NCBI GenBank assembly: GCA_004212975.1
Contig: SHBF01000003.1
Location: 1 to 59,802, forward strand
Origin: SAR86 cluster bacterium
Lineage (GTDB): Bacteria > Pseudomonadota > Gammaproteobacteria > Magnimaribacterales > D2472
DNA length: 59,802 nt
Reading direction: 5' to 3'
Shown: positions 1,005 through 7,177 of the stretch, piece after piece
Layout of the letters: every line of letters begins with the position of its first letter
Position numbering within the stretch: the first letter of the stretch is position 1
Position numbers and translations under genes: made by a program
Notes under the pieces: generated by a model
What the model was told of the DNA's origin: nothing
The model's database searches: none
The model's input: the letters and a program-made list of their open reading frames with translations, nothing else

Positions 1005-1068
1005 GGGAGCAGCAGCATAGCTGGGGTGCTTTTTATTATTTGACCCAGCCTTTGCTGGGTTTTTTTTT
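1005..1068 (+). promoter_or_regulatory. TonB receptor leader with mutually exclusive hairpins (candidate attenuator)
   Basis: GCTGGG 1020-1025 can pair with CCCAGC 1044-1049, which otherwise pairs with GCTGGGT 1054-1060 of the terminator. Confidence 0.4.
1043..1068 (+). terminator. Rho-independent terminator-type hairpin
   Basis: ACCCAGC-CTTT-GCTGGGT followed by a run of T (1060-1068); ends 15 nt before the receptor ATG. Confidence 0.75.
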
Positions 1069-1083
1069 GAGAGGATATGAATT

Positions 1084-3447
1084 ATGAAAAACTTTAAAAC
1101 AATTTTGTGCACACTAATTTTGGCACCATTTATTTTGATTTCACAAGAAGTTGAAGAAGTCATAGTAACAGCAAACAAAAAAGCTGAGACTGTGCAAGAA
1201 ATACCTATGAATATATCTGTAATAACAGAATTAGCTATCGAGGAACGAGGTATAACTAACCCTGAAGACTACTTGAGATCTATTGCTGGTGTTTCAACTC
1301 CTGGTGGCTCAAATTACTATACTTTTAGGGGCTTAAACACATCTACCTCTCAAAGATCTTCAGGGACGTCATCTACATATATTGATGAAATTAATGGAAC
1401 TTTAATGGGATTATTTGATGTTGAAAGAATAGAGGTTCTTAGAGGGCCTCAAGGAACGCTTTACGGATCAAATGCAATCGGTGGAACTATAAGATACATA
1501 ACTAATAAACCAGATTCTAGCGCTGCATATGGGAAGATTAGACTGGGTTATGGTGACAAGGTTAAAGCAGGTGATCCTGAAACAAGCATTGAAATGATGT
1601 ACAACATGCCTTTAAGTGACAGCCTTGCTGTAAGAGCGGTATATTCTCAACTTGTATCACCTGGAATCTATAAAAATATACAAACTGGTAAAACAGTTGG
1701 TGAAGAGGATGATTCGCAACTTATGATCACTCTTGGTTTTAACGATGGAGGCAAACTTACAGGAAGTTTAAGGTACATTAATTTCAATAATAAAGCATTT
1801 GGTATTTTAGAGCCTGGTCAGAGCAAGCCTGGTAGTGCTGACGTATATGTTGAGGGATGTCCTCAAGCAACAGGCTGGTTTTATAATTTTGAAGGTGATC
1901 CAACTTGCTCACGTTTAGACGCAATATCCTCGTTTGCAGCTTCAGAGGGAGTAAGTGGAGTTCTTTCAAATTATGACCCTAAGTTTTCTCATGCCTTAGC
2001 TGCTGATGAATCTGAAGATATTACAAGAGAAATCATTGTAGCTAATCTAAAATATGATTTTGGCCTCTTTGATGCAAACCTAATTATTTCTGATAGAACG
2101 GTTACCGATGATTCGGTTACAGACTGGGCTAGAATTGACATGGATGATTACGTTCCAGCACCACTAATTGTAGATGGTGATGAATATTACGAAGAGACAA
2201 CAGAACTTAGATTAATCTCAAAGCCAGGAAAATTTGAGTGGACTATTGGATATTACAATTATAAGTTCAATGAAGAAGCTAACTCAATATCACAAACACA
2301 ATATGCAATGGATCAGGATTGGTTAGAGTATGTAATGCTTTATGCGGCTGGTTTGAGTCCTGGTGATTATGACGCAACAGCATATTGCCCTCCATTTTGT
2401 GAAGGTCATCTAGGTTATCCTTATTTTTATTATGGATCTTACACTGAATATAATGAACAAGAAGAAACATCTATGTATGGTCAATTTGACTATAACGTCA
2501 ATGATAAATTAACTCTAACATTAGGTATTAGAGATTATGAAATTGATGATGCATCTAAGTCTTACCAGTATGGCATATTTTTTATGGGTAGTACTGGGTG
2601 TGATGGTAATGATCCATCCGGTACTGACTGTTCGGAGTTATCAGGCTCAGAGTCTGACACTAGGATGAAATATGCAGCAAGTTATAGGGTTAATGAAGAT
2701 TTAACATTGTATGCAACTCAAGCAGCAGGTTACAGACCTGGAGGAAATCAGGCGCCACTTCCTCCATTCTGTAGTAGTGATGAAGCAGCTCAAGCTAATT
2801 TTTCAAGAAGATTTAATTCTGATGAAGCTGAAACTACTGAATTTGGTGTGAAAGCTAGAGGGGAAAATTATACTGCTAATGTTACTTATTTTGATGTTGA
2901 CTGGGATGGAATTATTATCCAAGTTACTCCTGGTTGTGGCTGGAGATATAATTTTAATGGCGGTAAAGCTGAAACCTCTGGTTGGGAATTTGATTTTACA
3001 TATGCAGTTAATGATTCTGTTTCTCTGGATTTTGCTGGAAGCTCAATGACTGCGGAAACATCAATTGATATTGTTTCACTTGGAGCATCTGCTGGTGACA
3101 GACTTCCAAATACAGTTGAAAAACAATGGAACCTTGGATTGGTATATGACACCTCAATAATGTCATATCCAACTTATGCAAGGCTTGATGTAAATTATTA
3201 TGGAGATAGTTTTAATACCTTTGCTGAAAATCCAAATTCAAGCTCTCCAGATTACACAAAGCTAAACTTTAATCTTGGATTAGATTTGAATGAAAATTCT
3301 AAATTACAACTATCTGTAGATAATCTTACAGACGAAAGAACTGAAGCATATGTCTATGCAGTGAATGACACATCCTGGAGACCAAGAAATTGGATGCAGT
3401 GGATACCTCCAAGAACTGTCAGCTTGAAATATTCTTTTAGTTTCTAA
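1084..3447 (+). CDS. TonB-dependent outer membrane receptor
   Basis: 787 aa; signal peptide, EEVIVTANKKAETVQEIPMNISVI plug start, VERIEVLRGPQGTLYGSNAIGGTIRYITNKP, C-terminal ..TVSLKYSFSF beta-strand. Confidence 0.95.
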   Translation: MKNFKTILCTLILAPFILISQEVEEVIVTANKKAETVQEIPMNISVITELAIEERGITNPEDYLRSIAGVSTPGGSNYYTFRGLNTSTSQRSSGTSSTYIDEINGTLMGLFDVERIEVLRGPQGTLYGSNAIGGTIRYITNKPDSSAAYGKIRLGYGDKVKAGDPETSIEMMYNMPLSDSLAVRAVYSQLVSPGIYKNIQTGKTVGEEDDSQLMITLGFNDGGKLTGSLRYINFNNKAFGILEPGQSKPGSADVYVEGCPQATGWFYNFEGDPTCSRLDAISSFAASEGVSGVLSNYDPKFSHALAADESEDITREIIVANLKYDFGLFDANLIISDRTVTDDSVTDWARIDMDDYVPAPLIVDGDEYYEETTELRLISKPGKFEWTIGYYNYKFNEEANSISQTQYAMDQDWLEYVMLYAAGLSPGDYDATAYCPPFCEGHLGYPYFYYGSYTEYNEQEETSMYGQFDYNVNDKLTLTLGIRDYEIDDASKSYQYGIFFMGSTGCDGNDPSGTDCSELSGSESDTRMKYAASYRVNEDLTLYATQAAGYRPGGNQAPLPPFCSSDEAAQANFSRRFNSDEAETTEFGVKARGENYTANVTYFDVDWDGIIIQVTPGCGWRYNFNGGKAETSGWEFDFTYAVNDSVSLDFAGSSMTAETSIDIVSLGASAGDRLPNTVEKQWNLGLVYDTSIMSYPTYARLDVNYYGDSFNTFAENPNSSSPDYTKLNFNLGLDLNENSKLQLSVDNLTDERTEAYVYAVNDTSWRPRNWMQWIPPRTVSLKYSFSF

Positions 3448-3543: not shown

Positions 3544-4524
3544 ATGAGAATTATTTTTATATATATTCTTACACTTTCTATCATTGTTTGTTCTGATGAC
3601 GAAGATATTGTCGAAACAAATATTGTTAATCTAAAAGAATACACTGTCGATAAAAGCTCATATTGCAAAGAAAGAGCTGAACCAAAAAATTTAATATGGT
3701 TCCAGAATTTTGATGAAAATTATCTATCTCCAGATGTTTGGAATTATTCAACTTCAAATGGTTTTTACGATGGAAAAGAATTTATTAGTGGTTGGGGCAA
3801 TGGAGAACTACAGTACTATACAAAGCCCAGAAAATTAGAAAGTAATAACAATACGTCTAAAAACCTTTTTATTGAAAATGGGTATTTAAAAATACAACCT
3901 ATATATAGAAAAGATAAATCACGAATCAGCAGCGGTGAAGATGCATATAACTTTACTTCAGCAAGAATTAACACCAAAAACCTTAAATCTTTTTCCTATC
4001 CATCAAAAATTTCAATATGCTTTAAGGTTCCAAAAGGAATTGGATTTTGGCCTGCATTTTGGTTGATGCCAAGTGAAGATATTAGATGGCCAGTTGGAGG
4101 AGAAATTGATATTTTAGAAAATAGAGGCAGAATATCTAATATTTCAAGCTCTGCTCTTCATTTTGGCAAACAATGGAATAAAAAATCTACGCTTGTGGGT
4201 GAAGCTTTAATTCCAAGGCAGGTTCGCTTCCAAGATAAATTTCATTCTATATCTTTGGTATGGAAGGAAAATGTCATTGCTTTTTATCTTGATAATTCTT
4301 CGGATCCATATTTCACTATAAATTCTGATCATCCAGAATTTCAAAAATATAAGTACCCATTCAATAGAGATTATTACATGATTTTAAACGTAGCGGTTGG
4401 AGGTAAATATGATGATTATTGGGTTGATTTTGATGCATTTTGCAATGATGAAGAGTGTTCAAATAAAGAAGATCCTGATAGTCATAGATTTATAATTGAT
4501 TGGATTGAATATGAGAGACTTTAA
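3544..4524 (+). CDS. glycoside hydrolase family 16 (beta-glucanase/laminarinase-like), probable lipoprotein
   Basis: Catalytic motif GGEIDILENRG (ExDxxE), GFWPAFWLMP, WGNGELQYYT; N-terminus with a Cys after a hydrophobic segment (LSIIVC). Confidence 0.88.
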   Translation: MRIIFIYILTLSIIVCSDDEDIVETNIVNLKEYTVDKSSYCKERAEPKNLIWFQNFDENYLSPDVWNYSTSNGFYDGKEFISGWGNGELQYYTKPRKLESNNNTSKNLFIENGYLKIQPIYRKDKSRISSGEDAYNFTSARINTKNLKSFSYPSKISICFKVPKGIGFWPAFWLMPSEDIRWPVGGEIDILENRGRISNISSSALHFGKQWNKKSTLVGEALIPRQVRFQDKFHSISLVWKENVIAFYLDNSSDPYFTINSDHPEFQKYKYPFNRDYYMILNVAVGGKYDDYWVDFDAFCNDEECSNKEDPDSHRFIIDWIEYERL

Positions 4525-4547
4525 AAATTATCAATTATAATTAGTGA

Positions 4548-5906
4548 ATGTCTAGGGGATTTATATTATCAGATGAAATTCTTGATCATAAGATCAATTC
4601 TCCTGCTTTTGAAGAAAAGCATAACTTTGATGCATCAGGTAAATTAAATGATTTAGAGCTCTTCACTAAAGGGCAACCCTTCAGTCTATATAAAGAACTT
4701 AGAGAAAATGCACCAATATATTTTCATGATCCTATGCCTATGGATCCTGAGCCTGGTTATTGGGTATTAACCAAATATGAAGATATAAAGTATGTATCAA
4801 TGAATCCAAAAATTTTTTCGTCGCAATATGCTACTGGCAATATGCTAACGCTAGGATCAGAAAAAAATAGACACCCTAAATTATTTAAATCAACTATAGA
4901 CCATATGTTAAATTTGGATGGAGAAATGCATCTTAATCTAAGAAAAGAGCATATGCCATTTTTTAAGCCTGGATACGTAGATGAATTAAAACAAAAAGTT
5001 TCTTTGAAAGTTACTGAGTTACTGGATCAAATTGCTCCAATGGGTGAGTGCAATCTTGTTAAAGAAGTATCTCAACAATTACCTATTTACACTCTCTCAG
5101 AAATACTTGGAATTCCGGATGAAGACAGACAAAAATTAGTCTCTTGGATGGAATTTCTTGAATTAGCTCAATACTTTACTTATGAAATGATAAAAGAGCA
5201 AAATGAGGGCAAGACAGATTCAACCCCAGATTCAGCGCTGATACATATGTTTAATGCAATGGTTGATGAAATGTTTGATTACGGAAGATTCATTCTTAAA
5301 AACAAAAGAAAGAATCCATCAAATGATCTTTTGAGTGCTATTGCTAATGCAAAAATAGAAGGTGAAGAGCTTTCTGATGAATTTCTTGATGGATCTTGGC
5401 TGTTAATAATTTTTGCAGGTAACGACACTACTAGAAATACAATGAGCGGCGGCATTAAACTTCTTCATGAGAATCAGCATCAAAAAGAGTTATTAATTAA
5501 TAATTATGACTTACTTCCAGGTTTTATTAATGAGACTGTAAGATGTGTTTCACCAGTAATTCATATGAGAAGAACATCTCTCATTGAAACAGAAATAGGT
5601 GGCCAAAAGATTGGTCCTCATGAAAAGATAGCATTATGGTATGGAGCCGCAAATAGAGATCCAGAAATTTTTGATAAACCTGATGAATTTAATATTCAAA
5701 GAGAAAATGCAGAAAAACATCTTGCTTTTGGTATAGGCAGGCATACATGCCTTGGTAAACCAATTGCTTTGATGCAATTGAATGAATTTTATTCACAATT
5801 TCTTAAGAGATTTCCGGATTTTGAAATGGATGGTGAATGGAAGGTGGCCCCAAATAATTTTGTTCACGCTATTCAAGAAATGCCAATTAAATTTACTAAA
5901 GAATGA
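4548..5906 (+). CDS. cytochrome P450
   Basis: I-helix AGNDTTRN, ExxR (ETVR), heme loop FGIGRHTCLGKPIA. Confidence 0.95.
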   Translation: MSRGFILSDEILDHKINSPAFEEKHNFDASGKLNDLELFTKGQPFSLYKELRENAPIYFHDPMPMDPEPGYWVLTKYEDIKYVSMNPKIFSSQYATGNMLTLGSEKNRHPKLFKSTIDHMLNLDGEMHLNLRKEHMPFFKPGYVDELKQKVSLKVTELLDQIAPMGECNLVKEVSQQLPIYTLSEILGIPDEDRQKLVSWMEFLELAQYFTYEMIKEQNEGKTDSTPDSALIHMFNAMVDEMFDYGRFILKNKRKNPSNDLLSAIANAKIEGEELSDEFLDGSWLLIIFAGNDTTRNTMSGGIKLLHENQHQKELLINNYDLLPGFINETVRCVSPVIHMRRTSLIETEIGGQKIGPHEKIALWYGAANRDPEIFDKPDEFNIQRENAEKHLAFGIGRHTCLGKPIALMQLNEFYSQFLKRFPDFEMDGEWKVAPNNFVHAIQEMPIKFTKE

Positions 5907-7177
5907 TAATACCTTATAGATTTAAAGTAGTTTTTTTATCATTCTTAGCTGTTTTTATTTGTTATATAGATAGAGTTAATATTTCTGTTGCAATCATTCC
6001 TATGCAAGAGCAGTTTGGATGGTCTGAATCGCAGGTTGGTATTATTTTGGGATCATTTTATTTCGGATATATGATCACAATGATTCTTGGTGGATATTTA
6101 GCTGATAAATATGGCGGTAAAAAGGTTCTTGGATTTGCACTACTAATTTGGTCATTATTTACAATCATTACTCCTTTTTTTGCTTACCAAGGATTGTGGT
6201 GGTTAATATTAATTAGAATTCTAATGGGTCTAGGAGAAGGGGTTACTTTTCCTTCATGGCATGCAATATATGCTAGATGGATACCATTTCAAGAAAGAAC
6301 AAGATCAATAGGTTTTACTAATAGTGGTATAGCTGCCGGGACACTATTTGGATTTGCAGTTGCAGCATTGATAATTGCAAATTACTCTTGGGAATGGGTC
6401 TTTTATTTATTTGGATTACTAGGATTTTTTTGGTATTTTTTCTGGAATAGAATAGTTACATCTTTTCCAGAGGATAATAAGCTTCTTTCAGATGAGGAAT
6501 TACATTATATAAAGACTCAAGCACCTTCTAAAGAATCTGCTCCAACAATTCCGCTTTTAAAACTTATAAGAAATGCTCCTTTTATGGCAATAGCAGTTGC
6601 AACATTTTGTAATAATTGGTCTTTATATACATTTCTTTCTTACTTACCAAAATATGTTAATGCTCCCGTTGCCCAAGGTGGAATGGGAATAGACTTAGGA
6701 TCAAATGTATTTATTTATTCAATACTTATACCAAGTTTTGTTGCAATTTTTTCTTTGATATTGGGAGGCTTTTTAGCTGATGGTTTAATCAAAAGGGGAT
6801 ATGGCTTACTCAACATAAGAAAAAGTGTAAATTCAATAGGTTTTTTTGGTTCGGCATTACTGTTATACCTAATATCGTTGGAGGATTCTCTTATAAATCT
6901 TGTCATATTATTGAGCCTAATTAATGTATGTTCTGGCATATGTGCAGGCGGTTTTGGAGTTAATCATGCTGATCTAGGCCCTAAATATACTGGTTCATTG
7001 GTAGGAATCGCAGGAAGTATTGGAATGCTTGCAGCAATTATGAGCCCAATAGCTGCAGGATATATTCTTGAAATAACTAACTCTTGGAATTCTATATTTT
7101 ATGTCTGTACATTTGTACTTATATTCGGCGGGACCTTTTATTTGCTTTTTGCAAGTGTTGAAAAACAATTCGATTAA
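5903..7177 (+). CDS. MFS transporter (anion:cation symporter type)
   Basis: ~12 TM; YIDRVNISVAIIPMQEQFGWSESQVGIILGSFYFGYM, GGYLADKYGGKK; start overlaps P450 stop. Confidence 0.88.
   Translation: MIIPYRFKVVFLSFLAVFICYIDRVNISVAIIPMQEQFGWSESQVGIILGSFYFGYMITMILGGYLADKYGGKKVLGFALLIWSLFTIITPFFAYQGLWWLILIRILMGLGEGVTFPSWHAIYARWIPFQERTRSIGFTNSGIAAGTLFGFAVAALIIANYSWEWVFYLFGLLGFFWYFFWNRIVTSFPEDNKLLSDEELHYIKTQAPSKESAPTIPLLKLIRNAPFMAIAVATFCNNWSLYTFLSYLPKYVNAPVAQGGMGIDLGSNVFIYSILIPSFVAIFSLILGGFLADGLIKRGYGLLNIRKSVNSIGFFGSALLLYLISLEDSLINLVILLSLINVCSGICAGGFGVNHADLGPKYTGSLVGIAGSIGMLAAIMSPIAAGYILEITNSWNSIFYVCTFVLIFGGTFYLLFASVEKQFD

Follow-up and report, generated by a model that had tools for sequence, protein, structure and literature searches.

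What governs a TonB-dependent receptor gene whose start codon lies immediately behind an intrinsic transcription terminator? The question is raised by a locus in a 59,802-nucleotide stretch of DNA from a SAR86 cluster bacterium, hereafter the window. SAR86 is among the commonest bacterial groups of the surface ocean and, to our knowledge, few of the substrates of its TonB-dependent receptors have been identified. The original prediction, made from the letters of the window, described a riboswitch-like leader in which the substrate of the receptor might control its own uptake by premature termination. Here, we report a comparison of this leader with its homologues, according to which it is very probably a ribosome-mediated transcription attenuator of the trp/his type that senses charged tRNA-Arg and has passed to an uptake receptor in bacteria predicted to be auxotrophic for arginine.

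Results

The leader and its surroundings in the window comprise the following features.

815–899, + strand: tRNA-Leu(TAG), the left syntenic marker
939–966, + strand: putative leader promoter, with a weak -35 box TAGTTA (939–944), a 16-nt spacer and the -10 box TATACT (961–966)
976–1020, + strand: predicted leader peptide ORF of 14 codons, MLIVNLHKERGAAA, with the stop codon TAG at 1018–1020; open in frame in 50/50 homologues
1003–1005, + strand: CGG (Arg), the candidate control codon and the tenth codon of the leader; present in 50/50 leaders
1008–1030, + strand: pre-emptor (1:2) hairpin, predicted from the folding of 22 representatives to hold the antiterminator strand in ribosome-free RNA
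1020–1025, + strand: putative antiterminator strand GCTGGG, overlapping the leader stop codon and complementary to CCCAGC at 1044–1049
1043–1068, + strand: intrinsic terminator ACCCAGC-CTTT-GCTGGGT with U-run, recognised from sequence, folding and a compensated change in relatives
1069–1075, + strand: Shine-Dalgarno-like GAGAGGA of the receptor gene, from sequence
1084–3447, + strand: TonB-dependent receptor of 787 amino acids (Pfam Plug, TonB_dep_Rec), the putatively regulated gene
5903–7177, + strand: MFS transporter, the right syntenic marker, located behind argH at loci that retain the arginine operon

Direct reading of the sequence confirmed the terminator, the antiterminator pairing and the third hairpin of the original prediction, and folding shows the hairpins. 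The terminator consists of ACCCAGC (1043–1049) and GCTGGGT (1054–1060), forming a 7-bp stem around the loop CTTT (1050–1053), and the third hairpin pairs AGCA (1008–1011) with TGCT (1027–1030) and CAGC (1013–1016) with GCTG (1020–1023). The tail of nine T described earlier is a real U-run extending to 1068, but eight T follow the stem and nine are reached only by counting the paired T1060. The receptor ATG at 1084 had rightly been judged too close to the terminator for a separate promoter: the Shine-Dalgarno-like sequence fills 1069–1075 and the gap leaves no room for one. Overlooked in the earlier sequence-only reading was the leader ORF, whose codons are ATG TTA ATT GTT AAC TTA CAT AAA GAG CGG GGA GCA GCA GCA TAG. 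The -10 box ends 9 nt before its start codon, from which 93 nt lead to the end of the U-run. The locus accordingly has an intrinsic terminator before its first structural gene and, upstream of that terminator, a short leader ORF predicted to be translatable.

Folding of 1000–1070 yielded both hairpins at -22.8 kcal/mol, with z = -1.6 against shuffled sequences, so that the single sequence is not decisive; nor is the ACCCAGC/GCTGGGT stem specific, as it also ends other, leader-less transcripts in these genomes (L112–L121). The case for an attenuator therefore rests on comparison. With its four-nucleotide loop (ACCCAGC-N4-GCTGGGT) and U-run, this stem is a recurrent, ordinary SAR86 terminator, found also at a second site in the genome of the window (C32), and the covariance-model matches weaker than about 1e-4 that were inspected were ordinary terminators sharing it.

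Searching 203 genomes of the order, first with the leader DNA and then with a covariance model, recovered 50 genuine orthologous leaders in SAR86 (L062–L111). Their frames span 13–16 codons, and ATG and GTG starts as well as TAG and TAA stops interchange while the frame stays open. Among 22 divergent representatives (<80% identical), an open in-frame start six or more codons ahead of CGG would arise with a probability of about 0.12 per leader when the upstream sequence is shuffled, or about 10^-20.7 over all 22. The CGG codon is kept in 50/50 leaders, 15 nt from the stop codon in 48 of them and 12 nt in two, and GCTGG starts 2 nt after the first stop base in 45/50 and 3–6 nt after it in the other five. 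TATACT lies 6–9 nt before the start codon in 41/50, and the leader peptide is therefore likely to be leaderless. The -35 box TTTACA, weak in the window, was found in 32/50, mainly of the arginine-operon type. The codon-position test, a weak one here, found almost no third-position excess in the leader peptide (0.159/0.168/0.184), as expected if its predicted translation matters only for the control codons.

CGG is the rarest Arg codon of the window, with 5 occurrences among 17,837 codons of its ORFs. The 22 representative leaders contain 22 CGG codons where 0.08 would be expected, and 19 other Arg codons where the expectation is 9.2 (P = 0.003). Most leaders preceding a receptor hold a single Arg codon, while those preceding an arginine operon usually hold two, AGA being added beside CGG. 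The control codons (invariant CGG, extra AGA or CGA) match the amino acid made by the arginine operon found at 28 loci. No tRNA-Arg(CCG) was found among the 33 tRNA genes of the near-complete relative G016, whose tRNA-Arg anticodons are TCT, TCG and ACG; CGG is thus probably read by one wobbling tRNA species, which would make it a sensitive control codon.

The gene behind the leader is of two kinds. At 28 of the 50 loci it encodes N-acetylornithine carbamoyltransferase (in G070, equivalog NF003384 at 537 bits) and opens an arginine operon, argF'-argG-argBA-argC-argH, in which argG, acetylglutamate kinase, argC and argH follow; argG is present in 27/28 of these genomes, the exception being G036, a draft split into about 150 contigs. 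At 21 loci, all of the genus of the window, it is a TonB-dependent receptor 67–100% identical to that of the window, and all 21 orthologues of this genus (E <= 1e-150) lie directly behind the leader. The remaining leader (L079, G064:C2 at about 271965–272058) has neither downstream. Its ORF and promoter are the same as those of G074, a genome of another genus, and unrelated sequence begins just before the expected carbamoyltransferase ATG; this locus may be what is left after operon loss, or the product of a transfer or of mis-binning of the contig.

Both types share their flanks, with tRNA-Leu on the left and the MFS transporter, a thioredoxin-like protein and further genes on the right, so that one and the same position, behind an orthologous leader, is taken by the arginine operon in some genomes and by the receptor in others. 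In a tree of 26 MFS genes, distant or truncated ones falling below the similarity filter, the receptor type forms one clade (support 97/96) beside G005, which keeps the operon and is the one operon-bearing genome of the genus in the tree. This arrangement indicates a single replacement of operon by receptor. Receptor orthologues also occur without the attenuator, upstream of the leader in G083 and after tRNA-Leu without a leader in G037 (L167), and the attenuator thus appears to be an acquired regulator of the receptor. Upstream of the receptor orthologue at L142/L167 (G037 C5, AAA168-P09) lies a frame of 14 codons, MNKLLVFFMRFIIY, the tenth of which is CGG; it has no terminator, overlaps a good TTGCTT-17-TATAAT promoter and is possibly due to chance. 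Two further genomes of the genus, G032 (L139) and G020 (L141), have a P450 or GH16 gene directly after tRNA-Leu and neither leader nor receptor at the site.

Neither argG nor the arginine-operon carbamoyltransferase was found in the 21 receptor-type genomes, which contain at most one carbamoyltransferase-family gene each, matching the aspartate enzyme in length and score, and only distant argC-like matches. This absence was judged from the 21 genomes jointly, since most are incomplete, and the lineage is predicted to be auxotrophic for arginine. The ArgR C-terminal domain was not found in 61 genomes of the family, while control genomes were positive in 8/14 cases. In genus g9, which possesses argG and a gene resembling acetylornithine carbamoyltransferase, no leader was recognised at the inspected loci (L122–L126, L135, L136), and no ArgR was found.

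Folding with the expected ribosome footprint masked fits a switch between the pairings. Before the 3' arm of the terminator exists, its 5' arm pairs upstream with a mean probability of 0.89 for a ribosome at CGG, 0.14 for one at the stop codon and 0.54 for none. In naked RNA the ORF region takes up the GCTGG strand with a mean pairing probability of 0.84, against 0.54 for shuffled ORFs, and exceeds the shuffled mean in 22/22 representatives. At equilibrium, however, the terminator mostly prevails, even with a stalled ribosome (mean probability 0.78 versus 1.00), and the antiterminator of the window has only 6 bp; the modelled switch must therefore be kinetic and may be modest. The comparison of orthologues called for by the original prediction gave a divided answer: the terminator stem carries a compensated C-G to U-A change in two relatives and is the only helix supported by RNAalifold, whereas covariation of the antiterminator is weak (7.03 versus 6.92 pairs, a value reached in 35/2000 shuffles). 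Geometry and kinetic folding fit exclusive pairing, while equilibrium folding speaks for the terminator and covariation is weak. The three pairings themselves are kept among the homologues, in keeping with the attenuation logic first read from them.

Discussion

The arrangement might be taken for something other than a leader peptide attenuator. A metabolite-binding riboswitch for arginine, ornithine or the receptor ligand, acting directly on the terminator, would account for a terminator, an alternative pairing and conserved CGGG and UAGCUGG before a biosynthesis operon and an uptake gene alike. What is conserved corresponds base for base to the Arg codon, stop codon and antiterminator strand; the remaining positions of the supposed aptamer vary, and a frame kept open in 50/50 leaders while start and stop codons interchange is unexpected for an aptamer. 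Rfam held no family for the leader at gathering or relaxed thresholds, the window leader and six other leader loci having no match at gathering score, which bears out that no known riboswitch class is involved; a candidate P1/P2 aptamer (L003, L019, L022) was dropped, as its conserved bases were codons, its pairing registers varied and alifold supported the terminator alone. We consider a riboswitch highly unlikely. The conserved element that had been called riboswitch-like is a predicted translatable leader peptide whose invariant Arg codon has the position of the control codons in trp and his attenuators, and the same leader precedes the arginine operon in other SAR86 bacteria. A separate small RNA gene of the RyhB/PrrF kind, ending at the terminator, is very unlikely: a promoter-like box of its own, a transcript of about 95 nt with a poly-U terminator and synteny with tRNA-Leu despite different downstream genes are in its favour, but it would not explain why a coding frame containing a rare Arg codon precedes arginine genes, and in neither downstream class does the distance from terminator to ATG leave room for another promoter. 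The RyhB match (RF00057) reached 26.8 bits against a gathering score of 55 bits, and the sub-threshold RyhB and PrrF matches were rejected as similarity of a terminator plus U-run.

That the hairpin merely ends the tRNA-Leu transcript, the case named in the original prediction as speaking against regulation, might be suspected from a tRNA-Leu end only 143 nt upstream and from a stem that is a plain terminator elsewhere. Such a role is extremely improbable, because whole genes stand between tRNA-Leu and the leader in several genomes (G034, G083 and others) and because it gives no account of why the ORF, the control codon and the antiterminator strand are conserved. A leader peptide responding to something other than arginine, namely slow translation at the rare CGG or a ribosome-binding antibiotic, could draw on the rarity of this codon and the lack of a matching tRNA in G016, and on the K-x-R or R-x-R of some leaders, an Arg-Leu-Arg motif being known from antibiotic-induced leader peptides (PMC8632094). 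Set against this are leaders free of such motifs, e.g. MKKLFILNIRGITL, ancestral targets that are arginine biosynthesis genes, and the AGA that operon leaders usually add to CGG, which together make a non-arginine signal highly improbable.

For the trp/his-type attenuator sensing charged tRNA-Arg, we infer the ribosome positions and the response to arginine from the observed leader anatomy, conservation, synteny and gene loss. Transcription would start at or near the leader start codon, judging from the -10 box, and a ribosome would translate the 14-codon peptide. With ample Arg-tRNA it would get to the UAG and cover GCUGGG (1020–1025), so that the terminator (1043–1068) forms and the receptor is off. 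With Arg-tRNA scarce it would stall at CGG (1003–1005), about 15 nt upstream of GCUGGG, opening the hairpin at 1008–1030 and freeing GCUGGG to catch CCCAGC (1044–1049) before the 3' arm of the terminator is made, and transcription would read through. If no translation took place, the hairpin would keep GCUGGG and termination would result. Premature termination ahead of the receptor, as first proposed, is supported, but the signal is probably arginine supply and not the ligand as such. Ancestrally, the leader would have governed the arginine operon, which was lost in one clade of genus g1, where the TonB-dependent receptor came to lie behind it.

Like the trp, his and leu attenuators of enterobacteria, the SAR86 leader combines a short peptide carrying codons for the amino acid under control with a stop codon on the antiterminator strand, an intrinsic terminator and three hairpins predicted to exclude one another. 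It differs from them in that the amino acid is arginine, usually with one or two control codons, in being very compact and probably leaderless, and, in the receptor clade, in having an outer-membrane receptor and not biosynthesis as its putative target. Enterobacterial leuL likewise uses a rare control codon, CUA. T-box RNA binds uncharged tRNA directly and without translation. In arginine T-boxes (named in PMC1262725), tRNA charging similarly governs arginine genes via leader RNA; neither the window nor six other leader loci matched a T-box or any non-tRNA Rfam family. In the leader orf34 of Salmonella speF, also an upstream ORF with Arg codons as arginine sensor, consecutive Arg codons pause the ribosome at low arginine and downstream expression rises; unlike the SAR86 leader, it involves Rho, RBS sequestering and RNase G, has no intrinsic terminator and targets ornithine decarboxylase (PMC6386406). 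Leaderless poly-cysteine short ORFs of mycobacteria act as amino-acid-responsive attenuators (Canestrari et al. 2020, cited in PMC9094748); they too are short, leaderless and regulatory, but they carry runs of cysteine codons and belong to actinobacteria, where a conserved terminator hairpin was not found (PMC1262725). A leader peptide also precedes carA of Pseudomonas aeruginosa (PMC4997734). Within the literature searched, most subscription journals lying outside it, we found no arginine operon under an arginine attenuator that uses an intrinsic terminator, no such attenuator on a TonB-dependent receptor and no reuse of an attenuator on an uptake gene after pathway loss.

The protein families of the receptor are generic, and its role in obtaining arginine or arginine-containing compounds is one we infer from its regulation alone. 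That the attenuator outlived the lost operon and captured a receptor importing arginine or arginine-containing peptides, switched on under arginine starvation, is possible and is put forward tentatively. GH16 glycosidase and cytochrome P450 genes lie close behind the receptor in the window (3544–5906) and may be co-transcribed with it; in G034 and G005 a GH16 gene lies upstream of the leader instead. Given the GH16 gene after the receptor in the window, a polysaccharide is also possible as substrate.

The locus would represent a trp-type attenuator for arginine biosynthesis in bacteria where ArgR was not found, and its reuse on an uptake gene after loss of the pathway it once served. The predicted regulatory link to charged tRNA-Arg gives one SAR86 receptor a testable substrate hypothesis. 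If this is true, a regulatory element that outlived its pathway would report the substrate of an orphan outer-membrane receptor.
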